A DNA stretch of 64,000 nucleotides from Candidatus Gastranaerophilales bacterium. GTDB taxonomy: Bacteria; Cyanobacteriota; Vampirovibrionia; Gastranaerophilales; Gastranaerophilaceae. The notes beneath the pieces are model-generated. The model saw nothing but the letters and a program-made list of their open reading frames with translations, was not told the origin of the DNA and searched no databases. A program made the translations under genes and the position numbers. Location of the stretch: the NCBI GenBank assembly GCA_944326545.1, contig CALVEH010000002.1, forward strand, positions 1 through 64,000. Direction: 5' to 3'. Every line of letters begins with the position of its first letter. The stretch's first letter is position 1. Of this stretch, positions 15,201 to 49,654 are shown one piece after another.

Positions 15201-16675
15201 AAATCATTACCAGCTTTAATTTGGGCCCCTTTATTAACATTAACAGATGACACTGTCTTTGAACCTAATGCATAATAAAGTTCTTGTGTTGTATCAAGAG
15301 CAGGAGCATATCTTTGTGATGATTTGTATAATGTATTAGCAATAGCATTTGAACTAATTTGAGCGTTATTACCTGCTATAAGCTGAGCACCTGAGTCAAT
15401 ATTAACCTCTGCTTTAGCTCTGGCACCCTCAAAATCAAATTTATCTCCACTAATAGCACCTTCTATCATTTGGCCAATAGCACTGGAGAACATACTATCC
15501 AAAATAGTAGTATTTGTTGCAATGTAATCAACTTTACTTGTAGCACTTATATCAATATTGTTAGATGCTTTGAGAATTGCGTTGCTTATATCCACGGTAG
15601 CAAAATTAGTATCATTATGAGCATTTGCATTTGTAGCATCACTTGGAATTGAATTTTGTATTGTAGATTTTAAGGCAGAAGTTAAATAATCGCCATCAAC
15701 GCCTAGTTTTTGTAGTTCTTCAGGTAAAAGATTTTTATCTAACCATTCTCCTGTCTCTGAATTTACAAGTTCATTTAAAAGATACTCTTTTCCTTCTATT
15801 GTAAGTTTTTCAGTTAAACCAGGATTTACAGCTTGTTTAATGGACTGAGCTTTAATAACTATATTACCGTTAGGATCTTTAGAAAATCCTGTACCACTTT
15901 TAATATCATTACTTACAAGTGCATCAAAAAGTTTGCCAGCAGCCTCTGTTGAAGCAAGCTTTGCATTAACATTTTGACCGCCGTTTGTAACTGCATTATT
16001 GTTGACACCAGCAAGAATACCAGCTTTATTATCAACAGTATTTCCAACCCTTATATTTTTAGCAACTAGCTCCACACCTTGACGTGCAATAATTTTACCT
16101 TGAACATCTATAGCAGGGATGATATTACCTTTTTCATCTTTTATCAAAGCCATGTCAGAAGCTTTTAATACAGCAAGATTGTTTTCATGTGTATAGCCTT
16201 CAGGTAACACACCACCAATTGCAGAATCAGCAATATACTTGGTATAAGCTTGTTGTGTCGGCGCTATTGCTGTTAAGGCACCAACATTTAAAACACCTGA
16301 AGCACCAACAACCATACCTTGAGGTGAAACAAATATAGCATGCCCGCCTATATTGCCATTACTTAAAACACCATTTAAAATCCCGTTAATTATAATTCTA
16401 CTATCAACAAGGTTAACAAATTTGCTAATATCTCCACCATTTTTTGCATAGAATAAAAGGTTAGCAACATCGCCTTTTGAAAGCTCAAAATTACCGTAGT
16501 GTCTAAACCCGAAATCACCACTGACATGATCAGGATGTATATCATAATGTCCGTTAGCGGAAACATCAACACCTGTAATTTGTGTGGCAAATGCAGGTAA
16601 CACCATCGTTTGCTGCATTAAAAATAAGAAAGTTAAAAATGATGCAAAAAACTTCTTAAAACAAATATTTTTCAT
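215..16675 (-). CDS. Giant two-partner-secretion filamentous adhesin (LktA-like TpsA) with C-terminal PilZ-like domain
   Basis: This 5486-residue exported adhesin is presumably threaded across the outer membrane by the divergent TpsB at 16849. A Sec signal peptide ends near residue 30 (LPAFA). Residues about 31-250 form a TPS/haemagglutination-activity domain, with INGILNG at 96-102 and a GGHAIFVSPQGMVVGASG stretch. A very long array of Gly/Ala/Asn/Val-rich beta-helix-like repeats follows. Residues about 3630-3890 are a predicted coiled coil. Asn/Thr/Gly-rich repeats resume near 4100-4750 and include a near-identical 146-residue-period duplication. The last ~125 residues look like a PilZ domain: RDSIR (R5374, R5378) is RxxxR and NISRGG (N5408, S5410, G5413) is the [DN]xSxxG signature. 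A PilZ end on an exported adhesin is odd. The start is the only Met giving a full signal peptide. The family is firm. Ligand and exact topology are unknown. Confidence 0.9.
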   Translation of the reverse strand: MKNICFKKFFASFLTFLFLMQQTMVLPAFATQITGVDVSANGHYDIHPDHVSGDFGFRHYGNFELSKGDVANLLFYAKNGGDISKFVNLVDSRIIINGILNGVLSNGNIGGHAIFVSPQGMVVGASGVLNVGALTAIAPTQQAYTKYIADSAIGGVLPEGYTHENNLAVLKASDMALIKDEKGNIIPAIDVQGKIIARQGVELVAKNIRVGNTVDNKAGILAGVNNNAVTNGGQNVNAKLASTEAAGKLFDALVSNDIKSGTGFSKDPNGNIVIKAQSIKQAVNPGLTEKLTIEGKEYLLNELVNSETGEWLDKNLLPEELQKLGVDGDYLTSALKSTIQNSIPSDATNANAHNDTNFATVDISNAILKASNNIDISATSKVDYIATNTTILDSMFSSAIGQMIEGAISGDKFDFEGARAKAEVNIDSGAQLIAGNNAQISSNAIANTLYKSSQRYAPALDTTQELYYALGSKTVSSVNVNKGAQIKAGNDLIIHAQSQNAHNIKIKNPTSTIGSTIDKVVGIPNIQVIILANQVEADTTAAIHSGAIIEAANVEVDAVNHSSISSNVQALANITPDANSGAAVAVNINNTHINTNALIDTKINTHDKGSVSVNAQNLYMGSTIAKADVTSDAPKKNFIDKMKSQILSKVVDKFAGLLDMGGNGPIIDTSGLPNVSVATVINDSNVNTTATIGKNAAIHADDVKVNANTIDLTVNNATSNVKIESKKDDSGSSGVSGFIPNPGVAVIVNEQNNSTKAVIESGTASNHATASNHATVVANNKLDVNATTELPRNSATIEFILNLLQTGYDLTNLPSDAIGNIEAEWGEDWDIRLLLQGITNPVGEVSADISNVLTGFKTNVKDSKGLAGFFNNWAATTSKTTEGMGLSASVISSAVNNDTVAQIGQYADVSGGDVVVNAANKTVQYNAAGDINKLLILPSGAASGANGVGGNVIVESVTNNTKALIDNNAKVNVKGNVDVLSGTENQFVTVVNTGSKASGKDGFSISGSVTVQNFDGTTSSSVGKALIKANNLNVKVGDAKLNELAKAGDQFSWDKIWEDLPTDGNFDVGFDPDLSSPTISNFGGIDETSGLLSFKEQSTTIKDGISNILFAGATSEQELQGGSGSSSSGGAVGASVNVSLFDRVVSATIADGANITLNDSLNVEADSRTQSLNLAFAGAFAGGVKVEKPGASSGGILNSALSKTGDVFNKIKNKLASTSTDNSVSTDKNISVDGKDYKVDSNNDLKDANGNALKDSNGNNVKYQGSTGKEAGSLDNLDASKGHANNISVAAAGSVNTQINESVVKAEIGNATINVGNNVNVEASQATKSLNIGGGVANAATVGAGAAVNFIQNSNQTIASIDGTNIIFNKNLTNNNKLNVKANESNDNIQVAIGVGVGKKDKDDTTTTVVAGGSFNADVLENSVAATIQNATVSNNADGKIDVDVDAENHSTAYKGAGGLAVSAGKGGSTSVGAGMGGNLNIINKNTEAKIQDSTLNNLNNVSVAANKDSSKLTEDLVSVGVSGTVITGAQNGYTFSGAMATDVIENEVSAIVDNSTIVASGDLDAFANNNFRNINTAGALGFSTASTGVGIGIGAIVSVINNTVTAALQNNYKINANSVDVNAKNNEDLYFLAANMGVQTGSGIPVSVNGIVNVIQNNVNASIISSNVTSAATTNVIADYDNSIQGATVVGAASNAGVATIGANVLSNTLLSSNTAQVLGSNVSSTGKLTVKSTSDGNIDIIPVAAAISGSGTVAAAANVGVNVVSNTTTAKIDKDSTNKKSTVSANDIDVVASDNTKSRSRGGTIAATGGTAGVGGSILADVYTKNVDAHIDNATITNGGNIKVDASAKNIFGAENPSDITLGSLTEKVEAGEDIANSDGFENWDMTFDVAGGNTAGVSGSLISKNVINNVNSYIGSNVEIQNAGSVDVLASNKTVADVIVGNVTGAGTAAVGGSVFSNVNVSDVNAYISNGAKIGTVSKVGNINVDAESSQVYKSIMFIVGGAGAASVNGSINSNIVANTTNAYIGNGVNINSNGSLIVDASDSMDIESVNIGVGGAGGASIGGVVYVDVLANKVNAVVGKNAANGQKAGNINVGSDVLISANNNQNFKANIALIKGSGAASVDGVAISNTMASEVNAGIENTTLKTTNGKIDVKANNDFNKDKETTGIGSLFGKDSINSSDVTALLPLVGIVNVAGSGGFGVGANVIANVVSTAVSAYVNNATVSSTKGLNVSANSTMNTYDAVISTTFGSAAGVGITGVNNIYSGTTKAAIEGSTVENGSVSVVANDLFNLNTVVFSIAGAVAGAAVSGVENANVIENNVIANIINTGINYASTVSVNAQNSVYINDILAAASVAATGAGVNLIPVVNQFTGKTEAKIEGGSVKGADTNVSAKTIANVNAGIVGATGAVTGASLGGYTVTNIFDNDIHAKINGTTITKAKSTSVNAESDIDISDSLASAGLAGIGANALANVLVNVINNNVTAYIADSSIQGGSVSSFAKQSTNINNNAYAGGAVGAGANAVINTVVNSFENNLISYIDNTSLEGVSTVSVVADSDENLENTNIGVSVAELGASIGSNTIVNYIENTTKAYIDAKDKSMNASDKVSVTANDQILVDNKLGLLAVGTEAVGASVNVNVINNAVVSELLTTQGGKINAGNVEVLADSVIGMDNSIANAVGGVAGIAANVVVNSIGGKVDFSGTSELNSSKINDSLAKINGNSNNIQYEKDGQTKTASYNLTSGTIKDGTKANINGNVTVTGKNSDGDAIKVAASNKLKGYNDDTFSSNNIGAGVGLAAMGASVLVTNMKYKTDAEISGGSITASSGNVKVDAVSNVKAEVDVVDATVGVVGIKGGVGYFNNAAQTIAKVSDATINSKGNLLVNANSNDNIDVDVLSVLGAGVGANVSVSIAETSNNVQSLVSGNVDIDANDVNVLASNTSNLTSKLDTKAGGGLTVDVAVNRTKSDAITHALINATGTIDSNNMNIIASSDGISATTTMSLGTYSIIGVDVANQGAVVNSEFMSGIDNAQITVNNKGKTNIASGVKKSDNTKAALMKAEVISQKSQVSLADVSVTKLNASVNSKTEAKLNTGNFTTKDLEISSLADRDALVGNSSNSLGAISVKSLDMNASAKGSNTIDISGHNTITGNAQVNLADDAYTNTQMLNANLSIVNVGVNESVSEIDTDTTINIGGTLAMNDMNVSSKVSRNSYNSVESDGTSFVGVQNYKITTTTQGDSNVNITANATNQDFNNGLSVIANAVNTAESIMGESANALVAISKNLSGNTVNASNNINVKGAKFDSKGDFNLSAKNENRVLMKRSTTQNGVYVNSGGSLYNNMTSLSKVNVQDGSDIKANNVNISSTAEIGTKENENIAYTIKAAGGIVETTTTIDNNVSQTSEVNVKNSNITAKSNMNVNVDTNSAFSQSVNASGSGFVANVNGFSNLTVTNNNIFNVLNNSTIAGDYLNIALDSSNTLKNNVDLNANHFGFRDIDATSNITLNVNNLINNEGHIRAGSLAQFDFMKNSTNILDQDVKITVDAAIPTSVVDGKVVYAVNNKLIVAKNADIISSKDVIVNYSSGNSQLTSDMIEDLTCRIVFGIPIHTVNRYSRIDNKLTNALQLDGVIKAGDSAQRYMYIDKDGNIDVAKLKGFLEDEYKIVDAANISGEQLTQDTIKGLQKEAQNLKDKISKLDGQIADNDAIIVSYKEKLTEINDLLNKVNNAISVESAANQLKSEVQTAVVGSGDNQISQELFDQIWAKAGELDDAGNSQGIASIAKEILKDQENLDNKVKAIEDAYNTAKGDFTESNGYTLYNGQIVLGNTDEDKNNAINDLQSGKTSLESIIAQFESVNKGYQDNRDSLNNSLTSVNDQISYLIDNPLSDLNIEKAAIEFANLTVPNAKIQLNGIEKADVKGSGEFRLVTAGLGIDNYSNRDLVFKNINLDNYSLAGLIIGGTNYNYLANSSTPVNDNVYLKTEGDIDGIVINNYYDHMNPTLEDSIASNIIFNGSITASGDLLDIWNESGNIEFNAPVSVNSKDIVATQGNVTYNGANSSFDVKAGDRIIAGQNIDINAKNIKIDGTLKAGYGDRNLTITDDMLNNLVVDPTTGEKNMVNLGGSDKSSYLNTTNNIKVLYKDGKLLVFNTKQEGGNVNLTGSVTGNGSVTYTDGYATVSIDNQTDKQLVINTLENNRMNGSFDNRGTITNITNQGSLLADTTIKSNGFIEVLGSIKNGLGFKNGDSVSVLNINGQNGILVDKKLDEIGIVVPTIESYGNTNITNANTNSGVVVDGVIKTSNGNTTITNDGSMGVSIAGTIDSELGNVYITNSGVNGTKITGLITNTAENISITNDAGKLTIFGTVQNQGKDLLITNNGDAGAEISGLVSNSGTASTITINNTKGALNITETAIVQNNSQLKEDNMKISNSGEGLLSIFGKVLNIGKGNTVIDNTNITSGVVVAGNVENASGNVSLKNEGNQGSTISGKIKNSKGSTTVTNNGGKLLVSGTVENAGTGVTLTNNGEDGTEISGLVSNSGTASTITINNTKGALNITETAIVQNNSQLKEDNMKISNSGEGLLSILGKVLNIGKGNTVVDNTNTASGAVVAGTVKNNQGNISIDNNGNSGITLKNTALVENAGGNLFIDNKNINSGIVTENGSKVVNNNGKLTVNNEGASGMSLAGSIQNKKGVTVITNNNDAETSSIILATTGRITNNDGKISISNKGTKEIGIAVEGIISAIKQDIEIINENSDISIGEYDSNNDFYINTQNGSITITQVNGDILNGIVDPDTQNKNQNHDLGKPDKAYKTLISSSGNLNLSVTDGNIGSDTHALEGKESGFGVNASTRDYTESINVKVNGVVKANATNNGNALINIRAKNSDLKVDNITSDGNVMLTAADWKQKDQNPTPADDAYFHGYSIINAASDKSKANVTGRNISLIGSDNVGVKDNKLTYYQLDGGSISAMAENDLYISGMGNNDNFWQLITKRGNMGLEFTGDAIIREITAGKHLEIVSKGANLTIYDLGKVTNMAPDDDILYPHDRITITSVAPETVDIRVLDINPDTRVNPNDANSTLNIYNAYIKGQSNGKPDVTLRADNIIAHAYDAASSVVSNKDRPNGFDATEGRLYANDYMNPDSEKNLKATGFNTVGKGDKLVFDIQGVSPDDVVNAGGKESDRNYKPQDVEQTMTIFNNPVGFKETVYKAKDVTLSLNSASTSPTDNRGMELLKFYSDNAYVDTKDLNLHISDGFITNYAEFRNGNRGGQGGGHFVDTANGYRWLTIVDNDYYRNIANDFGIPVTSQLYTKLTGSFALNMGNVIALETKAPVVHYNPYEVIVLPRTENSFYRLTYKDDKIQKTTTTPEFADIDKSTYKPTKRDSIRFEIAKGDGYVMVSNKKDKKEKRKRIIAIENISRGGLAVVHDGSLVKGEKFVIDLDYHNIKASPEVEVVRVTGDKAGLKFINLDKATANKILYMNMYMAETSSNKVSQN
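2961..3103. repeat. Perfect 143-bp direct repeat, copy 1 (within adhesin gene)
   Basis: The 143 bases are identical to 3399-3541, at an offset of 438 bp (146 codons, in frame). Similarity continues on both sides with scattered substitutions. It encodes residues about 4525-4572 of the adhesin and reflects a recent internal duplication or gene-conversion event. Confidence 0.9.
3399..3541. repeat. Perfect 143-bp direct repeat, copy 2 (within adhesin gene)
   Basis: Identical to 2961-3103. It encodes residues about 4379-4426. Recombination between the copies would remove or add exactly 146 codons without breaking the frame. Confidence 0.9.
14353..14388. repeat. 18-bp exact tandem duplication in the adhesin
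   Basis: Two adjacent identical 18-mers (14353-14370 and 14371-14388) duplicate six codons, giving ASNHAT twice in the protein. It is in frame and looks like replication slippage. Confidence 0.85.
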
Positions 16676-16848: not shown

Positions 16849-18858
16849 ATGCAAAAATATATAAAAAGTTTTATTCTACTTGCAGTGTTTATGTCAATGC
16901 TGTTGTCTGGTACTGCAAATGCAGAACCAATTGGTGGCTATGTTCCCGCTGAGTTAAATTATGGCGGAGCATTGATGAATCACGACATGATGATGATTAA
17001 AGAAAAACAACGCCAAAGAGATGAAGCAGAAGATTTTCAAAACTTTCAAGAGAGGAAAAAACACAAAGACAAAAAAGAAAGTGTTATAAACGACAATTCT
17101 GACAGCACTGAAAAAATATACGATGAAGAATCATCTAAAAAATTAAAAGAAGAACACCAAAAATTACAAGAAGAAAAAGCTAAAAAAAAATCTTTTTTTA
17201 AAAGAAAAAAAAAGAAGCAAGACTCACAACCCGAAGAATCTACCAATTCAGAAATAACAGAAAAAACAGAAACAACTACAACGATCAAAGCTAAAGTTGA
17301 TAAATCTCCAATGCAAGACGGAAAGGTCTACATAAGAGCTGTTGCAGTCACAAACTCTAAAATCCTTTCTGACATGGAGATTCAATCTTTAACAGACAAT
17401 GTTATCGGCAAATATGTGACATTTGATGACTTAGAAAAGCTCGTTGTAGACTTCAACTATATTTATGCATCCAAAGGCTACGTAACGGCTAGGGCATTTT
17501 TACCACCGCAAACAATAGAAAACGGCGTAGTAAAAATAAACCTTGTTGAAGGTACAGTAGGTGAAATAACTGTATCTGATAACAAATACACGAGTAGCAA
17601 TTACGTAAAAAAAAGAATTTCTGCTAAAAAAGGAGACATATTTGAAATTGTCGAACTAGAACAAGACATACTTAAGTTCAACAAATATAACGACGGCATA
17701 AAACTAAAAGCAAACCTCAACAAGGGTAAAGAAATTGGAACAACAGATATAAACATAAAAGCAGAAGAAAGATTCCCTTTTAGAGTCACTGCTCTTATGG
17801 ACAATGCGGGTAGAAAAACCATTGGCGAATTAAGAGGCGGACTTATGGCACAAGCAGACAGCTTGTTCCATCAAAGAGACCGTTTAACATTAGGCTCATA
17901 TGCAAGCAGACACTCTGTAACACCATTTGCTGATTACAATATTCCAGTTAACAAACACGATGGTAGAGTCGGGTTCTTATTTTCTTCAAGCTACGCTCAA
18001 ATTGGAGAAGGTCCATATAAAATATTTGATATAGAAAGCCGTTCATTCAACTATTCGCTATACTATACTCACCCACTTATAAGAAAACCAAATTTTGAAT
18101 TAAACGGTTATGCAGGTATTAACTATAAAACAGCCTCAACAGCTTTTGGCGGGTACACAATTAACAGAGATAAAATATCAAGCGCAGAAGTAGCCTTAAA
18201 TGCCAGATACGATACAAAACGAGGTATTTGGTATTTAAATCAAGGTGCATATCAAGCATTTCCTATTTTCGATGACACATCAAAATACTTCAAATACACA
18301 GGTAGTTTAATAAGATTACATGATTTTGGGCACGGTATTGTCGGTCAATTCAGAGGTATGTACCAATTTTCACCTCAAGATGTTATCCCTTATATAGACC
18401 AATTCCAAGCTGGTGGTTTGGCGACAATAAGAGGTTACTCAGAAGGTCTTTTGATTGGTCGTTCAGGTTACATAATTAGTACAGAACTTTTATTCCCAAT
18501 TGCACCGCAAAAAATATCGATTAAAAAGAAAAGCGAAAAAAGGGAAATACCTTTTGTCGGAAGATATGTTAAAGGTATTGTATTTGTTGACCACGCAGGG
18601 ATTTATCCTTTTAAAGGAGAAGGCCCAGGAGCTCAAAGTTACAACCAAAGTGACTATATGTTAAGTATGGGTCTAGGTTTAAGAATTACACTACCAGGTG
18701 ACGCAACTGCAAGATTATATTGGGGTTGTCCTTTAATGCATAACCCTCACGAAACTTATTACAGAAACCCACGTTTCAGTTTTGAAATATCACTTTCACC
18801 TGATATTGATAAGATTCTTAAATACAGAAAAAGCCTAAAAAATAAAGAGACTTTGTAA
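16849..18858 (+). CDS. TpsB outer-membrane transporter (FhaC/ShlB/HecB family)
   Basis: This 669-residue outer-membrane beta-barrel exports TpsA-type adhesins. A signal peptide ends near residue 26 (SGTANA). Residues about 50-150 are a highly charged Lys/Glu low-complexity segment containing KRKKKK, which is unusual in a periplasmic linker. A POTRA domain follows (about 155-250, with NGVVKINLVEG). The C-terminal barrel carries the family motif near GLATIRGYSEG (the [V/I]RG[Y/F] tip-loop motif of TpsB proteins). It is divergent from, and obviously paired with, the adhesin at 215-16675. Two A9 tracts and a T7 tract in the linker codons are potential slippage sites. The start is supported by the signal peptide and the purine-rich GGAAAAGGG upstream. 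Confidence 0.93.
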   Translation: MQKYIKSFILLAVFMSMLLSGTANAEPIGGYVPAELNYGGALMNHDMMMIKEKQRQRDEAEDFQNFQERKKHKDKKESVINDNSDSTEKIYDEESSKKLKEEHQKLQEEKAKKKSFFKRKKKKQDSQPEESTNSEITEKTETTTTIKAKVDKSPMQDGKVYIRAVAVTNSKILSDMEIQSLTDNVIGKYVTFDDLEKLVVDFNYIYASKGYVTARAFLPPQTIENGVVKINLVEGTVGEITVSDNKYTSSNYVKKRISAKKGDIFEIVELEQDILKFNKYNDGIKLKANLNKGKEIGTTDINIKAEERFPFRVTALMDNAGRKTIGELRGGLMAQADSLFHQRDRLTLGSYASRHSVTPFADYNIPVNKHDGRVGFLFSSSYAQIGEGPYKIFDIESRSFNYSLYYTHPLIRKPNFELNGYAGINYKTASTAFGGYTINRDKISSAEVALNARYDTKRGIWYLNQGAYQAFPIFDDTSKYFKYTGSLIRLHDFGHGIVGQFRGMYQFSPQDVIPYIDQFQAGGLATIRGYSEGLLIGRSGYIISTELLFPIAPQKISIKKKSEKREIPFVGRYVKGIVFVDHAGIYPFKGEGPGAQSYNQSDYMLSMGLGLRITLPGDATARLYWGCPLMHNPHETYYRNPRFSFEISLSPDIDKILKYRKSLKNKETL

Positions 18859-39115: not shown

Positions 39116-39226
39116 TTATAATCCCCTACTTAAAACTATTCAATTAACTAATTATATCAACGGAGAAAGCAAAAAATCAAATTAATATTATGTAAAGGTA
39201 ATATTTTTTATTAAATCTTGTAAAGA

Positions 39227-39237
39227 AATGATAATCA
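39227..39237. promoter_or_regulatory. Fur-box-like core upstream of the autotransporter
   Basis: AATGATAATCA equals the central 11 bases of the classical 19-bp Fur consensus; the flanks match poorly (about 13 of 19 overall). It lies ~110 bp before the autotransporter ATG. A TATAAT (39290-39295) lies closer to the gene but lacks a good -35. Confidence 0.2.
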
Positions 39238-39344: not shown

Positions 39345-42300
39345 ATGAGCGCGTTTGTAAATAAATTAAACACGAAAGTATTAACAGCAGCATTTATCTT
39401 GTCAGTAATAGCAATGCCTGCGCTTGCAGATGTTCCTGTACCTACATTGGATAGGGTAAAATCAGAGCAGTCAGCGTTTTTGGATACTGATTATTCTGCT
39501 TATAGGTTAACTGAAATCACAGCAGATGTGACAGCACCGGATGGTGCAATTACCATTAATATTGCAGGTAAGGAGTATTTTTATACCCCAACTGATAACA
39601 AAGATGTACTTCAATTACTTTCTGCAACAGGAAGTACAGCGTTAATAGAAACAACACAAGATAAAGCACTTTATACAACACGTGAGGGCAAGTACTACAC
39701 CTATGATTCAAGTAAATTAAAAGATTCTGCTTACACCCTTACAGAAGCAGCATCAGCAGACGAGCCTAATACTATAACTCTTTATGATAAAAAAGAGATA
39801 ATAAAGTATTACGACCCAACAACAGGCAAAGAAGTAGCAGAAGCAGACAGATTGCCTGATATTGAATATAAAGAAGTATCAACAATAGAAACAACACCAA
39901 AATACTACACGGTGAACCTCAATAAAACCCAATACGGCGACCCCAACGGCACAACTACACTAACCTACGGCTGGGAAAAGAATGCAGATACAGGTAATTT
40001 GGAATTCAAACAAGATCCTGCAGCCCCTGTAGGACAGACAATAACGTATTCATATAGTGAAGATTCTTTTACACAAACTATAGAAGGCAAAACAATTAAC
40101 GAGTCAGTGACAGACCCGTCAGGCACATCTTCAAGCAAGCCCTATATTATTGAAGGCGGGGTTGGTTTAAATAACCCTGTAGACAATACATATATCATTG
40201 ATAATGTGCTTTACATAGGCAACAAAGTAACCGGTACACTTGAATCCACTACTAATTCTAATAAATACGCACAAGTATCAGGCGGTGCGGTTTATAATGC
40301 TGGTGAGTTAACCTCTGTAACAGGATTATTTATAAACAACAGCGTTGAGGCCTATAGTACAGTTTCTGGACCTTACTTTGCTTACAACTATGCTTATGGC
40401 GGTGCGTTATACAATTCAGGTGCAATAGGTGATATTTTTGCAAATTTTATTGGTAACAACGTGTCGTCAATTGCGATTTTTGCTTTTGCCAAAGGCGGAG
40501 CGATTTATAATAATGAAGGAACAATCGGAGATATAACCGGTGATTTTATAGGAAACTATGCGTCTGAGGATCATGGTGATGCCTTTGGTGGAGCGATTTA
40601 TAACAATAATGGAACAATCGGAGATATAACCGGTGATTTTATAGGAAACTATGTGTCTGCTAATGATTATACTGAGGGCGGGGCGATTTATAACGATGAA
40701 GGAACAATCGGAGATATAACAGGCGACTTTATAGGCAACTATGCTTCATCTCCTGACCGTGCAAATGGCGGAGCGATTCGTAATGATCATGGAACAATCG
40801 GCAATATGACCGGCAATTTCATAGGCAACTATGTGCGTTCTGATAATTTTAGTAGCCTTGGTAGTGACGTCATTGGCGGAGCGATTTATAACGGTGGAAC
40901 AATCGAAAATATAACCGGTGATTTCATAGGCAACTATGCATCTTCAACTGATCCTTCTGGTGCCAGTGCTTCTGGCGGTGCGATTTTTGGAGGAACAATT
41001 GGAAATATAACCGGTGATTTTATTGGTAACTATGCGTTTTCTACAGAATCTTCAGCCAGTGGCGGTGCGATTGATACTGCTGGAACAATTGGATATATAA
41101 CAGGAGATTTCATAGGCAACTATGTATCATCTTCTGACGGTGTCAGTGGCGGAGCGATTGATAACAGTGGAACAATCTGCAATATGACAGGCGATTTCAT
41201 CGGCAACTATGCGTATTCAAACAATGATTCAGCCAAGGGTGGTGCGATTAACAACAACAGTGCTACAATCGGAAATATAACAGGTGATTTCATAGGCAAC
41301 TATGCGTATTCTGAAGGTACTAGTACTTTTTATTCTTATGCCTATGGCGGTGCGATTCGTAATGATGGAAGCTTTAGAAGTGGAAAAAACATTAGCAATA
41401 TAACTGGTAATTTTATAGGTAACTATGCGCGTTCAAGTACTTACGTTGCCAATGGCGGTGCGATTTATAATGAAGATGGAACAATCGGCAATATAACGGG
41501 CAATTTTATAGGCAACTATGCGTCAGGTTCTTATGCCAATGGTGGCGCGATTTATAACAATAGTGGAACAATCGAAAATATAACCGGAGATTTTATAGGT
41601 AACTATGCTCAATCAAACAGCAGTTACGCCTTAGGCGGTGCAATATACAATTTTTCGAAGTTATACTATACAGCTGCAATCGGCCTTACAAACAACAACT
41701 TTTTAAACAACTATGCAAAATCAGAAACCGGTACAGCCAAGGGTGGTGCAATATTCACATACTATAACCTTACTCTAAATGCCGACAACGGAACTTCTTT
41801 AATCTCAGGCAACTACACTGAATCTAACGGAGTGAAAGAAAATAATGCAATATATGTAGCTAACCTTGCCAACTCATCAGGAAAAATACAAAGAAATACA
41901 ACCCTAACCCTTAATGCAGTAAATAACGGAAAAATTCAAATAGACGACACAATCTCAGGCGGTTCGTACTATTACAGTTCATCTTCTCCAAAATTCTGGG
42001 AAACCTCAGGCCATGCATATAACCTAGCCTTAACAGGAGACGGTACAGGTGCAGTATCACTATACAACGATGTGGAAAATGCCAAGGTTACAGTACAAAA
42101 CGTGACAGTTGACCTAGCCAACAACGAAACACGTGACTACAATTTGGTTTCAATGACAGCAAATGAAAATACAAAACTTGATATAGATATTGACTTAAAC
42201 AATCAAACAGCTGATACAATTACAACTCAGAATACTTCAACAGGTACAATAACTCTTAACCTTATCAATTTTATAGGTAAATACGAAGGAACTCCCGTAA

Positions 42301-44519
42301 CTGTTCAAATCTTGAATACTCAATCAGATGCACTTCAACTTGCACTTACGGAAAATATAATAACACTGCCAGATGTTGATACTACAGTCTATAACGACCA
42401 AATAATATCAGAAGCAGGTGCAATAGAACTTTCTACAACAAATACAACAAACGATAGTATAACTATTAAAGATAAAATCTATGATACATTAGATGTAATA
42501 ACAACAAAAGATACAGCAGAAGAACGTAACTTCACTTTCAGAACAACAGACAACTACATAGCATCAAAAGATCTTGGAACAACAACCAAAGGTACATTAA
42601 ACATCAACGGTCTTGGTAAATCTACCCCATCAACAATAGATGCCAACAACCACACAATGTTTGACCTTCGAAACGAAACTACTTTAAACATATCAAATAC
42701 AACAATCAAAAACGCTAAAGACTTTGTAATTAAAGCAGAAAATGCTAACTCAGTTGTAAACCTCACTAACGCATCATTTAAAGATACTCAAGGTACAGCA
42801 ATACAATCTAATGTAGATGTAAACATTACAGCAGACGGAGCAAAATCAGAGTTCTCAGGCAATACTCAAGCTATCCAAATGAACAACGCCGATAAAACAA
42901 TAACAATGAACTCTGTAAACTCTGGAGAAATTGTCCTCTCTGATATCATAGACGGTACACAAGGTTATAGCATTAAATTAGACGGCGACAACAAATCAAA
43001 AATAACATTAAACAACAATATCAATAACGCTAACATATCTTTAGATAATACAAACCTCTACTTATCTAAAGAAAACCTACTTGATAACTCACAAGCATTA
43101 ACACTTAACTCAGGTTCAATGTATCTTAATAACGATGCAATAGGTACAATGCACCTTCCTACATTAAACCTTGCAGGAACAACAAACCTCTCTGTAGATG
43201 TTGACCTTGCTAATGAAACAATGGATAGAATCACAGCTGATACGTATAATATAACAAATGATGCAACCCTTAACGTAAATAACCTTAAACTATTATCTAC
43301 AACAGAAAAAGACAGTGTAAAAATTCTGTTTGCAGATAAAGAACTTGCAAACAACGTAGCATATACAGGAGAATCTCCAACTTCATATAAAGGAACAAAT
43401 GTAATCTACTCACCAATATACAAATACAACGTAAACTACGGAGTAGATGAAAATGACAAACTTGGTTATTTCTTCTTTGACAGAGTCATGTCAGGCTCAG
43501 GAAGCAATGGTAATGCAAGTGATGCATTCAACCCTGCAGTCTTAGCACCAAGTGTTGCAACTCAAGCAGGTGCATATACAACACAACTACAAACATTTAA
43601 CTATGCATTCCAACATTCTGATACATTTATGAATATCCCATATCTTGAACGTACTGCGATGATTAATCAAAATAAATACGCTTTATCACCAACAGGAGAT
43701 GCAACAGACGTTGGAACATTCTCACCACTTTTAACAAAAGAAGATACATCAGGCTTCTGGGTAAAACCATACGCAAGCTTTGAAAATATCCCGTTAAACA
43801 ACGGTCCTAAAGTATCAAACATCAACTACGGTACATTAGTCGGATATGATAGCTCACTCACCCCTGTAGCCAAAGGATGGGAAAGAGTATTAACAGGATA
43901 CATAGGATACAACGGAGCTAGTCAAAGATACTCTGGCGTTGATGCATATCAAAACGGAGGAATCTTAGGCGGAACAGCAACAATGTATAAAGGCAACTTC
44001 TTTAACGCAACAACATTATCAGTTGGAGCAACAGCAGGAGATGCTAGTACAATGTACGGAAATGAAAACTATGCAATGTTGTTAGCAGGTATAGGAAACA
44101 AAACAGGATACAACTTTGAATTTAAAGACGGAAGAATAATTTTACAACCAAACTTTCTCATAAGCTATACATTTGTAAATACATTTGATTATACAAACGG
44201 AGCAGGTGTAAGAATAAAAAGCGACCCACTTAACGCAATCCAACTTGCTCCCGGATTAAAACTTATCGGAAACACAAAAACAGGATGGCAGCCATATTTA
44301 AGCGTAGCAATGGTATGGAACTTACTTGATGACAGCAAAGTAACAGCAAATGATGTAAGATTACCCGAGATGAGCATAGACCCATATGTACAATACGGAG
44401 CTGGTATTCAAAAGAGATTCAAAGACAGATTCATAGCCTTTGGTCAAGCAATGATACACAACGGCGGTCGTAACGGTGTATCACTCACTGGCGGTATTAG
44501 ATGGTCTGTTGGTAAATAA
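39345..44519 (+). CDS. Autotransporter adhesin with Pmp-like GGAI/FxxN repeats
   Basis: This 1724-residue type Va surface protein has a signal peptide ending near residue 28 (AMPALA). Residues about 312-830 carry 16 consecutive units that open with GGA[IVL]. Almost every unit also contains FIGN or a similar FxxN motif, in 1:1 alternation (consensus GGAIYNN-GTIGNITGDFIGNYA). This is the hallmark of chlamydial polymorphic membrane protein repeats. Beta-helix Thr/Asn-rich passenger sequence follows. The last ~270 residues, from SGFWVKPYASF, form an autotransporter beta-barrel; the terminus is IRWSVGK rather than a strict terminal aromatic. It is a single gene with its own terminator and a possible Fur-like site upstream. 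Function: surface adhesion, inferred. Confidence 0.9.
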   Translation: MSAFVNKLNTKVLTAAFILSVIAMPALADVPVPTLDRVKSEQSAFLDTDYSAYRLTEITADVTAPDGAITINIAGKEYFYTPTDNKDVLQLLSATGSTALIETTQDKALYTTREGKYYTYDSSKLKDSAYTLTEAASADEPNTITLYDKKEIIKYYDPTTGKEVAEADRLPDIEYKEVSTIETTPKYYTVNLNKTQYGDPNGTTTLTYGWEKNADTGNLEFKQDPAAPVGQTITYSYSEDSFTQTIEGKTINESVTDPSGTSSSKPYIIEGGVGLNNPVDNTYIIDNVLYIGNKVTGTLESTTNSNKYAQVSGGAVYNAGELTSVTGLFINNSVEAYSTVSGPYFAYNYAYGGALYNSGAIGDIFANFIGNNVSSIAIFAFAKGGAIYNNEGTIGDITGDFIGNYASEDHGDAFGGAIYNNNGTIGDITGDFIGNYVSANDYTEGGAIYNDEGTIGDITGDFIGNYASSPDRANGGAIRNDHGTIGNMTGNFIGNYVRSDNFSSLGSDVIGGAIYNGGTIENITGDFIGNYASSTDPSGASASGGAIFGGTIGNITGDFIGNYAFSTESSASGGAIDTAGTIGYITGDFIGNYVSSSDGVSGGAIDNSGTICNMTGDFIGNYAYSNNDSAKGGAINNNSATIGNITGDFIGNYAYSEGTSTFYSYAYGGAIRNDGSFRSGKNISNITGNFIGNYARSSTYVANGGAIYNEDGTIGNITGNFIGNYASGSYANGGAIYNNSGTIENITGDFIGNYAQSNSSYALGGAIYNFSKLYYTAAIGLTNNNFLNNYAKSETGTAKGGAIFTYYNLTLNADNGTSLISGNYTESNGVKENNAIYVANLANSSGKIQRNTTLTLNAVNNGKIQIDDTISGGSYYYSSSSPKFWETSGHAYNLALTGDGTGAVSLYNDVENAKVTVQNVTVDLANNETRDYNLVSMTANENTKLDIDIDLNNQTADTITTQNTSTGTITLNLINFIGKYEGTPVTVQILNTQSDALQLALTENIITLPDVDTTVYNDQIISEAGAIELSTTNTTNDSITIKDKIYDTLDVITTKDTAEERNFTFRTTDNYIASKDLGTTTKGTLNINGLGKSTPSTIDANNHTMFDLRNETTLNISNTTIKNAKDFVIKAENANSVVNLTNASFKDTQGTAIQSNVDVNITADGAKSEFSGNTQAIQMNNADKTITMNSVNSGEIVLSDIIDGTQGYSIKLDGDNKSKITLNNNINNANISLDNTNLYLSKENLLDNSQALTLNSGSMYLNNDAIGTMHLPTLNLAGTTNLSVDVDLANETMDRITADTYNITNDATLNVNNLKLLSTTEKDSVKILFADKELANNVAYTGESPTSYKGTNVIYSPIYKYNVNYGVDENDKLGYFFFDRVMSGSGSNGNASDAFNPAVLAPSVATQAGAYTTQLQTFNYAFQHSDTFMNIPYLERTAMINQNKYALSPTGDATDVGTFSPLLTKEDTSGFWVKPYASFENIPLNNGPKVSNINYGTLVGYDSSLTPVAKGWERVLTGYIGYNGASQRYSGVDAYQNGGILGGTATMYKGNFFNATTLSVGATAGDASTMYGNENYAMLLAGIGNKTGYNFEFKDGRIILQPNFLISYTFVNTFDYTNGAGVRIKSDPLNAIQLAPGLKLIGNTKTGWQPYLSVAMVWNLLDDSKVTANDVRLPEMSIDPYVQYGAGIQKRFKDRFIAFGQAMIHNGGRNGVSLTGGIRWSVGK
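40281..41830 (+). repeat. Tandem coding repeats (16 GGA units) in the autotransporter
   Basis: The period is variable, about 27-40 codons. The most conserved block is GTIGNITGDFIGNYA, with DNA identity high between several neighbouring units (ACAATCGGAGATATAACCGG recurs). The variable spacer between units is Ser/Asp/Tyr-rich. The array is suited to unit gain and loss by recombination. Confidence 0.9.
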
Positions 44520-44560: not shown

Positions 44561-45037
44561 CTATTTATTAATTGGTTTAAATTTACCTGAATTTAAGTAA
44601 TTAATAACATCTTGCGACAAATCCACACCGCCTGTAAAAATTACTCTATAATCAAGAACGACATCGATCTTTTTATCTGCTGCAACAGCTTTTGTTGCTT
44701 CTAAGATATTTGTTTCAACTTCTTGGGCTTTTTTTAGTTTTAACTTATCAAAAGCCTCACTTTTAGCTTTGAAGTCTTTTTGGACTTGTTCTTCAAAGTT
44801 CTTTTTATTTATAGGTGAATCAATGTTTTTGTATTGTTTTTCTTTATCCATTAAAAACTGTTGGAGTTCAAGATATTTTGTATCTATCTCTTTATATGCA
44901 GCTTTAGCATACTCGTAATTAGATTCTACATTTTTATAATTTACATAACCAATAGTTTGCGCATCTGCAGAAGCATTCAAACCAACAAATGCTAACAAAG
45001 CGACAGCTGAAAGAAATATTGATTTAATCTTTTTCAT
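44561..45037 (-). CDS. OmpH/Skp-family periplasmic chaperone
   Basis: This 158-residue exported helical protein has a signal peptide ending near residue 26 (ASADA). It opens with IGYVNYKNVESNYEYAK, the typical Skp start. A long charged coiled-coil tentacle region runs through about 45-120, and a C-terminal strand region (KKIDVVLDYRVIFTGGVDLSQDVI) matches the family. Skp holds unfolded outer-membrane proteins, so it could assist the autotransporter and TpsB in this window. It is divergent from the AsmA-like gene, an arrangement that suggests an outer-membrane biogenesis pair. Confidence 0.88.
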   Translation of the reverse strand: MKKIKSIFLSAVALLAFVGLNASADAQTIGYVNYKNVESNYEYAKAAYKEIDTKYLELQQFLMDKEKQYKNIDSPINKKNFEEQVQKDFKAKSEAFDKLKLKKAQEVETNILEATKAVAADKKIDVVLDYRVIFTGGVDLSQDVINYLNSGKFKPINK

Positions 45038-45163: not shown

Positions 45164-48100
45164 ATGAATATAAAAATAAAAAACAAACTTTTAGTATATT
45201 TACTGTTATTGATACTTTTAGCAGAGTTCATATTTCTGATTGCTGTCCCAAAAGTAGCAAACAATCTTGTATCAAATGGAAGCCTACAACGACATGTAAA
45301 GCAAAAAACAGGTATTAATTTAGCTTATGAAACATTAAGTATCAAAACAACTCCTGCATTTGTTCTTGAAATAGAAGGCAGTAAAATATCAGCCCAGGAT
45401 AAAAACAAAAATGAACTGCTTAAAGCTGATGATATAGATTTGTCCTTATATCTACCGTCTCTTTTATGGCAAAAAATTATAATAAAAAATATTAATACTA
45501 ATGATTTTAGTTTTGTAATTACAAGAAAAAAAGATAAAAAAATATATTTTGGGGATTATGAAATAAAAGTAAATTCAACACATCCCAAAACCCCAAACAT
45601 AGACATTGACAAACTGTCTGTTAACAATGTTAGCATAACGTTTGACGATAAATTTATAGAACAAAAAACAAATTTAAAAATAGAAACAACTGACTTCTTC
45701 TATAAAAAAGACAAAAATCTTAAACTTGTTGTTAATTCTGGTATATACATCAATGACCACAAAAAAACCGATATAGTAGCAGATATTTCATCAAGACTTC
45801 CACTAAAGAAACATCTTAGTAAGTCAAATTCAAAGAGCAAACTATTTGTTAAAATAAATGATTTAGATTTATCTAACTACTCAAAATACGTGTCTTACTT
45901 ACTAAAACAAGACATAAAAGCATCAAAAGGGATAATAGATTTTGTTGCCAAAAGCACAGTTGATGACATTGTAACAGCAATGTATATAAAAGATTTGCAA
46001 ATTGACATGCAAAACCCTCTTGATTCAATAAAATCTGATTCTGCAATCAGAATAGCAAGCAACATAAAACTTGAAAAAGATAGTATAAACGTAACAAAAG
46101 CACAAATAAAAACAGCAAACTCACAAATTGACATTAATGGCAATATCAGCAAATACTTATCAGAAAACCCTTACTTAGATTTGAATATTGATGTGGCAAA
46201 AGCAAACGTACATTCAATGTATAATCTTGTCCCGACATTAAAAGAAGATGTAACCTTTGCTATAAGGAAATTCAAAAAATATGGAGCTTGGGGACAAGCA
46301 AAAGGAAATTTAAACATAAAAGGGAATTTGAAAGAACCTGATATTTACGGTGAAATAAACTTATCAGACGTATACATAGTAAAAGATAATCCTATAGTGC
46401 CTCACTGCAAAATTTACGCTAAATTTTTAGGCAAAAATGTATATGTTAGAACACGAGTATTTGCAGGACACGGAGAACACGTGGACATTGAAGGTACAGC
46501 CCAAATGAAACTGTATGGCGCAGGTAAATTTAGAGTTGTATCTTCATCTAATGTTGACTTGGGCACTGCAGAATATATGCTTGTACCAATCCACGAAGTT
46601 GTAGGATTTGATATCGGTCCTGTACCATACATGACAATAAAAGGTAAAGGCAACATAGATTTAACGACAGTCGGAACAATTCTTGACGGGGCAGCATACG
46701 GTCAGTTTAATTTTATGAAAACAACAGCTACTCTTCAGGGATTAAACACGACATTAGAAAATGCAAATGGAGTGCTTGATTTCAAAGGAAAAGACATGCA
46801 CTTTTACACAAAGCAAGCGTTTATAAACAAACAGCCAATAAAAGTTGACGGAAAAGCAAATCTGAACGGAAATATAGACTTTGATATCACAGCTAATTCA
46901 ATAAAAATAGAAGATTTATTTAAAATACTAAATACAAGCAGTATTTTGTCTGATAAAAAAGACATTGTAAGTCCAATAAAAAAAATAAACGGCAACACAA
47001 AAATTTCCATAAAACTAACAGGCGTTGTAAAAGATTTTGGAGAAATATTAAAAAAGAACACACTTAACATATCAGGTAATCTAAAACTAAACAATACTAC
47101 AGCAGAAATAAAAGACTTACCTGTGCCAGCTCAAAAACTTTACGGCACAATCAATTTTAATAACAATGACTGGCAAGCAAATTTAAAAGGAACAGCAGCA
47201 AGCTCTACTATTGAAGTAAATGGTTATAGTAAACAACAAAAAACAGACATCACATTTAAAGCACCAGCACTAAAAACTGATGAACTCATAAAAGTATTAC
47301 TTAAACCAAATAAAAATTTATCTGAAATACCTTCAACAAACTCACTAATAAGCTTTTTAGCACATTATAAAAATGATTCCAATAAAATAGATTTAAAAAA
47401 ACTGACAGCTGAGGGCAAATTCAGAAAATCAACAAATAATCCTCAAAACAATGATATTGTAATAAATTCAGGAAGTTTTAGCATCTCAAACGGTGATATA
47501 AATCTCAAAAACTTTGATGCAAAACTTTTCAATTCCAAAATTCAAGCAAACGGAAAAATATCAGAGTTTTATTCAAAAGATTACAAAATCAGCGGCAAAT
47601 TTAACCTTTCTGATTTTGATATATCAGCGTTTAATACATTAAAAAGACTCACAATTTTACCGCCATATGTAAAAAGTCTTCTAAATGCATATGAAAACTA
47701 TCAAGGAACAGCTGATGCGCATGTAACTTGTTTCAACAACAACTTAAAAGGTCAAATAAATCTTAAAAACATCAAGTTTAACCACAAATATTTCAAAACA
47801 CCTATTGCAATAGAAAAAGGTGAAATACTTCTTGACGGTTCAAAAATAACATTGCATTCCATAATTGCACAAATTGACAAAACGCCTGTATTTTTGAATA
47901 TTTCCTTGCAAGATTTAGATAAAACAATGAGATTAAACGGTTATTTTACAACAAAACTTACAGAGCAATTTGTCAATAAATACATCAACACTTTTTTGAC
48001 TTACCCAATTAAACCCAAAGGGGATATCACAATAACAACAGACCTTGGCGGAGATGTTAACAATTTAAGACTAAAACCAGTTATAAAATTTGCACAAGGC

Positions 48101-49654
48101 GCAGATATCTACTATATGGGAGCAAACCTCGGAGACGAAAGCGAACAAAGAGAACTCAGAGGAAATATTGTAATAAAAGATAACGGCAATACATTTGACA
48201 TAGAAGATTTCGCATACAAAAGATATATGTCATCCCAAAATGACAAAATATACCCAATAACAATTTTTAAAGGACACGGTATAGTAAACAAACAAGCTAA
48301 CGGCTTTTATGCTAAAAACTTAAACATAGAAACAAAAAACAACGCAAACGTTAAGCTGTTTAACATAATATTCAAAAAATCAATACTAAAGCAAGGGATG
48401 TTTAACTGCAAATTGAATGTTAACGGCAATTTAGAATCTCCAATTATTGTGGGACATATCAACATGCACAATCTTGATATGCCACTATACGACACCCTTG
48501 TTAAATCATTAACTGCAAAATTCCAAGGCAAATCCCTTTACGTCAATATAAATGGAGAATCAATGGGTTCTGATTTTTCAGTTAATTTGGTAAGCGGAAA
48601 TCACTTAGTACGTCCTATTGTCATTGACAAATTGGACATAAAATCCAATCACGTAAATCTTGATAAATTTATAGACTCTTTGACACAAATACCAACACCA
48701 AACACTGTTAACCGTCTTGTTGATATTCAACCAAGTACAAATAATGTAAACGCGATTATACCATCATTTAATATATCTGATTTTCAAATAAAAAATGGAA
48801 CACTGTCAGCAAATGAAATAGCAATCAGAGACTTAAGTGCAAACAATTATTCTTCTAATTTTTCATTGGGAGAAGATATGGTGTTAAATGTCGATAAACT
48901 TACATTTGATGTAACAACAGGCAAAATGATTGGTACTGCAAAATATGATTTTTCTAACGGAAAAATAAAAACTAACATATCTGCTCTCAATGTTGATTCA
49001 AACAAAGTAGCATCGTCATTATTTGGTTTCAACGACCAAATATTTGGTACCGCTAACGGAAACATATCTGTTACAACACACGGTGCCAGCGAAGAAGAAC
49101 GTATAAAAAATATGTTTGGCTACGTATATTTTGAAATTGCAAACGGAAAAATGCCTAAACTTGGTTCCGTAGAATACTTACTTAAAGCAGGAAACCTCAT
49201 AAAAAGCGGTATAACTGGTGCTAGCCTTAACAACTTTATCGAACTAATTGCACCTATAAAAACAGGATATTTTGAATCAATTAAAGGAAGCTTTACTCTT
49301 AAAAACGGTGTTGCTCAAAATATAGAAGTATACTCAAAAGGTGACAACCTCAACATTTACATAAATGGAGAATTTGATGTACTACAAAGTTATGCAAATA
49401 TGAGAGTATTTGGCAGACTAACAAAAAGAGCCACAAATATCCTTGGACCAATCGGCAACCTTTCATTTAATTCATTACTCAACGCTATCCCTGGTATAAA
49501 ACTTGGAAAAAATGAAAAAAGCGGATTTATAAGAGACCTAAACAAAATCCCAGGAGTTGAGCTAGATAACCAACAATACAGAATCTTTACTGTTAAAATT
49601 GACGGCAAACTGAACGAAAATAAATTCGTTAAAAACTTCCGTTGGATGGAATAA
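45164..49654 (+). CDS. AsmA/TamB-like envelope bridge protein
   Basis: This 1496-residue protein has an N-terminal inner-membrane anchor (about 9-29) and a very long periplasmic part of repeating beta-strand, Lys/Asn/Ile-rich segments. Phrases such as GNLNIKGNLKEPDIYGEINL and GDITITTDLGGDVNNLRL are typical of the AsmA/YhdP/TamB repeat. The C-terminal 150 residues (GYVYFEIANGKMPKLGSVEYLL, with FGRLTKRATNILGPIGNLS) match AsmA-type C-terminal regions. Such proteins form hydrophobic grooves thought to move phospholipid between the membranes or to help outer-membrane assembly. It is a single gene, divergent from the Skp-like gene; its first 19 codons overlap the shared control region. Confidence 0.85.
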   Translation: MNIKIKNKLLVYLLLLILLAEFIFLIAVPKVANNLVSNGSLQRHVKQKTGINLAYETLSIKTTPAFVLEIEGSKISAQDKNKNELLKADDIDLSLYLPSLLWQKIIIKNINTNDFSFVITRKKDKKIYFGDYEIKVNSTHPKTPNIDIDKLSVNNVSITFDDKFIEQKTNLKIETTDFFYKKDKNLKLVVNSGIYINDHKKTDIVADISSRLPLKKHLSKSNSKSKLFVKINDLDLSNYSKYVSYLLKQDIKASKGIIDFVAKSTVDDIVTAMYIKDLQIDMQNPLDSIKSDSAIRIASNIKLEKDSINVTKAQIKTANSQIDINGNISKYLSENPYLDLNIDVAKANVHSMYNLVPTLKEDVTFAIRKFKKYGAWGQAKGNLNIKGNLKEPDIYGEINLSDVYIVKDNPIVPHCKIYAKFLGKNVYVRTRVFAGHGEHVDIEGTAQMKLYGAGKFRVVSSSNVDLGTAEYMLVPIHEVVGFDIGPVPYMTIKGKGNIDLTTVGTILDGAAYGQFNFMKTTATLQGLNTTLENANGVLDFKGKDMHFYTKQAFINKQPIKVDGKANLNGNIDFDITANSIKIEDLFKILNTSSILSDKKDIVSPIKKINGNTKISIKLTGVVKDFGEILKKNTLNISGNLKLNNTTAEIKDLPVPAQKLYGTINFNNNDWQANLKGTAASSTIEVNGYSKQQKTDITFKAPALKTDELIKVLLKPNKNLSEIPSTNSLISFLAHYKNDSNKIDLKKLTAEGKFRKSTNNPQNNDIVINSGSFSISNGDINLKNFDAKLFNSKIQANGKISEFYSKDYKISGKFNLSDFDISAFNTLKRLTILPPYVKSLLNAYENYQGTADAHVTCFNNNLKGQINLKNIKFNHKYFKTPIAIEKGEILLDGSKITLHSIIAQIDKTPVFLNISLQDLDKTMRLNGYFTTKLTEQFVNKYINTFLTYPIKPKGDITITTDLGGDVNNLRLKPVIKFAQGADIYYMGANLGDESEQRELRGNIVIKDNGNTFDIEDFAYKRYMSSQNDKIYPITIFKGHGIVNKQANGFYAKNLNIETKNNANVKLFNIIFKKSILKQGMFNCKLNVNGNLESPIIVGHINMHNLDMPLYDTLVKSLTAKFQGKSLYVNINGESMGSDFSVNLVSGNHLVRPIVIDKLDIKSNHVNLDKFIDSLTQIPTPNTVNRLVDIQPSTNNVNAIIPSFNISDFQIKNGTLSANEIAIRDLSANNYSSNFSLGEDMVLNVDKLTFDVTTGKMIGTAKYDFSNGKIKTNISALNVDSNKVASSLFGFNDQIFGTANGNISVTTHGASEEERIKNMFGYVYFEIANGKMPKLGSVEYLLKAGNLIKSGITGASLNNFIELIAPIKTGYFESIKGSFTLKNGVAQNIEVYSKGDNLNIYINGEFDVLQSYANMRVFGRLTKRATNILGPIGNLSFNSLLNAIPGIKLGKNEKSGFIRDLNKIPGVELDNQQYRIFTVKIDGKLNENKFVKNFRWME

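Follow-up and report, generated by a model that had tools for sequence, protein, structure and literature searches.

In contingency loci of mucosal bacteria, a homopolymer run determines in which frame a surface protein is read. In Chlamydia, the PmpG genes of the polymorphic membrane protein (Pmp) group number 2–12 paralogs in each genome and have poly-G or poly-C tracts, with frameshifts nearby (PMC6740158, available in part), and a run of 8–9 G has been described for pmpG of C. trachomatis (PMC4488443, also available in part). The core spacing of the chlamydial repeats is GGA[ILV]-x(14,18)-FxxN (PMC11166332, partial text). The motif pair GGA[ILV]/FxxN has already been reported in unrelated organisms (PMC10715098, partial text), and Pmp-like β-helix proteins of Akkermansia, Methanobrevibacter, Phycisphaerae and Trichomonas combine it with predicted rungs; for these, the available portions of PMC10715098 and PMC11166332 report no expanded, recombining, tract-controlled family. 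A search of the literature on Gastranaerophilales, Melainabacteria and Vampirovibrio found no description of such an autotransporter, Pmp or phase-variation system.

The gene family reported here, from Candidatus Gastranaerophilales (gut Melainabacteria), has its closest parallel in the phase-variable PmpG group. Common to both are GGA[ILV]/FxxN rungs in a β-helical passenger, a PF03797 barrel and a multigene organization, with poly-G runs in some members and, in a fraction of the copies, shifted frames (PMC6740158 and PMC4488443, as far as their available text goes). The Gastranaerophilales family differs from the chlamydial proteins in belonging to an unrelated lineage outside the Chlamydiota, in its shorter core spacing and in its loss of positional orthology between close species. 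Its G run precedes the signal peptide, within a 5′ leader; most PmpG hotspots, by contrast, are located well inside the gene (available text of PMC6740158), the run of C. trachomatis pmpG, near the gene start, being an exception. With classical type Va autotransporters (AIDA-I, BrkA, pertactin and antigen 43), the family shares a 12-strand barrel and a β-helical passenger, but differs in repeat type, copy number and the G-run leader of some paralogs. The run logic of contingency loci recurs in these paralogs, here in Melainabacteria and with switching that we infer. The gene described below probably encodes a type Va autotransporter of an expanded family, diversified by recombination and, in a subset of members, by poly-G slippage.

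This gene (39345–44519, + strand; 1,724 aa) lies within the 64,000-nt stretch of DNA that was analysed (the window; positions 1 to 64,000 of contig CALVEH010000002.1, assembly GCA_944326545.1) and begins directly at its ATG, without a G run. A likely signal peptide (39345–39431, +; aa 1–29, ending in ALAD), recognized by eye from the translation, is followed by an N-terminal region (39432–40280, +) that is partly common to paralogs L026 and L028 (78–80% identity) and includes 116 nt, at about 39894–40009, identical to L026. The repeat array, comprising 16 GGA[ILV] units that alternate with FxxN and are predicted to form β-helix rungs, occupies 40281–41861 (+). The remaining passenger (41862–43514, +) was modelled as further β-helix followed by a C-terminal cap (AlphaFold2 model of aa 1000–1724), and in the same model a helix is predicted at low confidence ahead of the barrel (43554–43613, +; aa 1404–1423). 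The 12-stranded autotransporter barrel (43755–44516, +) was assigned from PF03797, model strands and Foldseek, and it encompasses a 176-nt stretch (44070–44245, +) that is identical in paralog L029 and is a likely exchange tract. The interval 40281–41830, to which the first-pass annotation was attached, contains repeats only; the remaining passenger and the barrel fall beyond its end. Searches of the 1,724-aa protein against NCBIfam and PDB sequences returned no match, as did Rfam and tRNA scans of the window.

The protein contains 16 GGA[ILV] motifs (aa 313–800; nt 40281 onward) and 17 FxxN motifs, 16 of them within aa 300–860 and one at aa 1170. Fifteen ordered GGA[ILV]-x(8–24)-FxxN units were counted; shuffling the protein 2,000 times gave 0.02 on average and at most 1, which confirms the alternation of sixteen GGA[ILV] motifs with FxxN proposed from the sequence at first reading. 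Repeat arrays with a period of 87–90 nt were also seen in this gene at the DNA level. Among 73 family repeats of this genome that fit one strict pattern, in which the constancy of GGA, F and N is fixed by the choice of pattern, the loops from FxxN to the next GGA were of variable length and distinct in every case (73/73).

Comparison with chlamydial Pmp placed the protein close to that design, yet outside the group. The Pmp repeat model PF02415 scored 18.2 bits on the array against a cut-off of 20.6, and gave no match on the whole 1,724-aa protein; five stretches in three paralogs did pass the cut-off. The chlamydial spacing of 14–18 residues was found in 2 of the 15 units, 12 having 12–13 residues, and across the family in this genome it fits 51 of 145 units. 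PF07548 (PMP middle domain) had no match in the genome, nor did it in the controls. The resemblance to Pmp put forward in the first-pass annotation therefore holds for the repeat alternation, the β-helix and the barrel, but does not extend to membership, given the sub-threshold PF02415 score and the different spacing: the protein would work like a chlamydial Pmp, yet is not one.

AlphaFold2 predicted a long parallel β-helix for aa 280–1000; beyond about aa 382 most residues have a pLDDT above 90, and the first two repeat units lie in a low-confidence stretch. In the model, a strand follows GGA, a turn coincides with FxxN and a short strand comes next, which is the order described for chlamydial rungs (PMC10715098, in its available part). 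Foldseek of the array returned no PDB match at E ≤0.001, so the fold call rests on VIA-align, together with secondary structure; VIA-align matched pertactin with a Z of 17.1 over 413 residues and antigen 43 with a Z of 12.6, as well as other β-helix proteins. The structure prediction of the array is a confident β-helix. For aa 1000–1724, the model showed further β-helix, a helix and 12 long strands at a mean pLDDT of 70, lower in the barrel, where model confidence is low to moderate. Its top solved Foldseek match was AIDA-I (E 9.8e-9), followed by EspP, BrkA and NalP. A six-frame search of the genome assigned PF03797 to 43755–44444 (+) with 53 bits against a cut-off of 26, but this family was not listed by hmmscan, whether run on the entire protein or on just the barrel, the two routes disagreeing on the same residues. 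The 53-bit score and the match to solved autotransporter barrels bear out the earlier suggestion that the array is followed by a β-barrel. With a C-terminal 12-strand PF03797 barrel and a β-helical passenger, the protein has the features of a type Va autotransporter, and on this modelling it is classified as one with a predicted β-helix.

The fold does not reveal the ligand, because pertactin and antigen 43 both match. We regard it as possible, if rather doubtful, that the family serves cell–cell aggregation or an anti-phage coat instead of host adhesion, with its variation driven by phages or neighbouring cells. DNA methylases are a class often tied to phage defence. Consistent with such a role, the fold matches pertactin and antigen 43 alike (Z 17.1 and 12.6), and two other G tracts of the genome are located in DNA-methylase-like genes. 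The family itself would provide adhesion and antigenic variation; its members may bind host, mucus or neighbouring cells, and may allow escape from immunity or phages.

Upstream of the gene, a 16-nt box, TGTAAAGAAATGATAA (39219–39234, +), may serve the family as a promoter or operator. All seven exact copies in the 2.185-Mb genome are found upstream of family genes (39345–44519, L021, L022, L023, L033, L034 and L036), and one further copy, with one mismatch, is located elsewhere in the genome. Downstream are a small exported protein resembling the chaperone Skp/OmpH (44561–45037, −), named by eye, and an AsmA/YhdP-type envelope protein (45164–49654, +; DUF748 48.5 bits and YhdP 39.4 bits, both just below their cut-offs). 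The latter was matched in 25 of 25 genomes searched. Among 12 relatives with a fetched region, some of which stop at contig ends, the Skp-like gene accompanies it in 11 and an autotransporter in one, G015 (38 residues at a contig end); L147 has neither. The Skp-like neighbour is thus kept without the autotransporter in most relatives. Elsewhere in the window, a giant exported ORF (215–16675, −; 5,486 aa), whose N-terminus resembles a two-partner-secretion exoprotein by eye and whose C-terminal end, oddly, has a PilZ domain match, lies beside a gene for a ShlB/FhaC-type transporter (16849–18858, +).

Within the genome (19 contigs), 45 stretches match the gene and 15 match its barrel, fragments included. 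The close family comprises six complete genes (39345–44519, L021, L022, L023, L025 and L026), together with fragments at contig ends, of which five are 5′ parts and six are 3′ parts (just 24 aa long in two cases). The set also includes L030, L031 and L037, three autotransporters that are more distant. The gene is one of roughly a dozen close paralogs scattered across the genome. The main family extends outside 40281–41830, with recombining paralogs and poly-G leaders elsewhere in the genome. Although the family makes up 2.4% of the genome, 11 of 38 contig ends fall inside it (binomial p 9e-10). The closest named relatives of the barrel are from metagenome-assembled genomes of Candidatus Gastranaerophilales (Melainabacteria). 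Barrel matches were found in 31 of 40 genomes searched, this one included, and in all 23 of the genus at 2–20 per genome, fragments included; at least five repeat units accompany 27 of 31 near barrels and 15 of 41 distant barrels.

The barrels of the close family are recombinant mosaics. Their DNA differs patchwise: between L024 and L027, the last 100 nt contain 16 differences and the middle 700 nt just 4. Paralogs that are otherwise different have exact blocks of up to 332 nt in common (176 nt for gene 39345–44519 and L029). In a PHI-type site-order test, from which L030, L031 and the incomplete sequences L029 and L032 were left out, no permutation out of 1,000 gave a value as low as the observed one, either for eight barrels of this genome or for ten of another species, and the result holds on third positions alone. 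The idea that the paralogs are near-identical gene-converted copies was rejected: at the DNA level their barrels share about 90% identity, and many of the differences are silent, for which reason patchwise exchange fits better than recent whole-gene copying. Recombination may act between strains instead of within one cell.

Mosaicism is also apparent between species. Positional orthologs in the nearest species, G015, were identified through their flanks (four pairs, 94.9–97.3% identical); the pair of gene 39345–44519 covers 114 nt, with a flank 77.8% identical, and the pair at the start of C7/C1 (flank 92.2%) was left out, having just 24 residues on one side. The barrels of positional orthologs were 85–92% identical, and another G015 copy was closer than the positional ortholog in four of five pairs, the ortholog being closest for L032. 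The controls behaved as ordinary orthologs (L030 90.0%, L031 94.9%; nearest other sequence in the set below 59%). A 51-barrel tree grouped the nine close-family copies of this genome with the six of G015 in a single clade (100/100), within which the two species were interleaved.

Seven runs of at least nine G are present in the genome, about half a run being expected by chance (arithmetic at about 34% GC), and five of these, all in sense orientation, lie where a family gene begins (L021 13, L023 9, L033 9, L034 10 and L036 10). Accordingly, a run occurs in 5 of the 11 main-family genes with a known 5′ end. Within the window, no G or C run of seven or more was found, and gene 39345–44519 carries no frame-setting repeat. 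In the five paralogs, the run follows a conserved leader peptide and precedes the signal peptide, so that its length sets the reading frame. At least 17 of the 23 genus genomes have runs of at least nine G. From these, 59 G-run neighbourhoods were fetched as a sample among the matches listed; within it, 21 have a family gene downstream in sense and 38 have no family match by protein comparison, the latter consisting of 6 cut by a contig end yet with the leader motif, 1 with the motif and no gene, and 31 with something else.

All of the 26 tract genes examined (21 from the genus, among the matches listed, and the five of this genome) have an ATG with a Shine–Dalgarno-like site 62–77 nt before the run. 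Traced backwards, the downstream frame stays open as far as the run in 21 of them, but not in five. Judged from that ATG and as assembled, 3 of the 21 usable genes are in frame and 18 out of frame, including all five of this genome; 3 of the 18 have another in-frame ATG nearer the run, without a Shine–Dalgarno-like site. Close reading of 20 tract genes, L241 and the five lacking an open frame to the run being set aside, revealed in each exactly one long frame after the run (71–1,617 aa, several cut by the end of the fetched stretch), the two others stopping within nine codons. A KPLS-like core of the leader peptide is kept in most copies across species. At four loci shared with G015, the run lengths in this genome and in G015 were 13/10, 9/10, 10/12 and 10/10, so that three of four differ between these species (species, not strains). 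Run lengths in assemblies are consensus values, and the fold, barrel, family, mosaicism, tract position, frame logic and between-species differences in tract length were all computed from assembled genomes.

Several other sequences are associated with G runs or with the tract-gene leaders. A palindromic element, ATTCTGAG..GAAGAATC, occurs in 18 copies, in the leaders of L021, L023, L033, L034 and L036 and at 11 other genome sites; seven copies are read in frame between a G run and a family signal peptide, and with 7 of 18 copies in this position, its being unique to the family was rejected. At L188 (C7:24500–34000 of this genome), two 11-G runs were found in tandem DNA-methylase-like genes (PF01555 similarity), which by sequence represent a candidate switch of genome-wide methylation. 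At L234 (C2:76043–78200 of G021), a 12-G run is positioned where a frame with a flagellin-like N-terminus (by eye) stops and a different 645-aa frame continues. G runs without a family gene were further observed in two other sequence settings, each recurring, across several species (L205, L219–L222, L224 and L225; L209, L211, L215 and L217).

Since all five tract copies of this genome and 18 of the 21 usable genes are out of frame, such genes may be silent or use alternative starts. It is unlikely, though worth weighing, that these are ordinary autotransporter paralogs with little recombination, whose G runs are slippery remnants in genes that are silent or started elsewhere, without adaptive switching. 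The five out-of-frame copies are compatible with this, as are separate downstream starts in five genes of relatives and the fact that gene 39345–44519 needs no switch. Set against it are the leader peptide kept across species, the single long frame after the run in 20 of 20 genes, three intact in-frame copies, and a barrel set, including the complete tract genes L021 and L023, that changes mostly at third positions.

Under the preferred reading of a recombining, partly poly-G-switched family, the long β-helix of GGA/FxxN rungs would hold variable loops at the cell surface, and segment exchange by recombination would shuffle passengers and barrels among the loci. Slippage in the poly-G run would put the remainder of a gene in or out of frame, and, should this occur in living cells, cells of one population would display different protein sets. 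Gene 39345–44519, without a run, would be expressed steadily and would act as both donor and recipient in exchange.

Metagenome assembly or sequencing artefacts are a most improbable source of the mosaics and G runs. Short reads are prone to errors in such runs, and 11 of 38 contig ends lie inside the family, but paralogs and several species have the runs in the corresponding position between conserved flanks, and the mosaic pairs include complete genes within long contigs. A gain of the repeat array from Chlamydia by horizontal transfer, one form of the horizontal spread that the first-pass annotation set beside convergent host-surface adhesion, is scarcely credible, even though both groups have the motif pair in an autotransporter, an expanded gene family and poly-G runs: sequence comparison lent it no support, as the barrel is present in 23 of 23 genus genomes searched, most related barrels carry the same repeats, barrel and repeats occur throughout the genus and partly in the order, the core spacing differs, PF02415 stays below its cut-off on the array, and the motif pair is known from unrelated organisms (PMC10715098, partial text).

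If the proposed explanation is true, two distant host-associated lineages converged on a short-motif β-helix, family expansion and poly-G switching, and convergence on a Pmp-like surface architecture becomes testable. It would also account for the fragmentation of gut Melainabacteria genomes at family genes and provide a concrete handle on host or phage interaction of these bacteria. As tract lengths are directly readable from existing metagenome reads, the switching claim is cheap to test. A second, global layer of switching is hinted at by the G tracts of this genome's DNA-methylase-like genes. Beyond this, we lean, with some reserve, towards the view that a variable, Pmp-like surface repertoire arose independently in gut Melainabacteria. 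It would consist of about a dozen autotransporters at dispersed loci, of which seven share an upstream element and some are poly-G-switched, and recombination would reshuffle it fast enough to erase locus identity between sister species. If so, strong immune, mucosal or phage selection would act on a group seen as quiet commensals.
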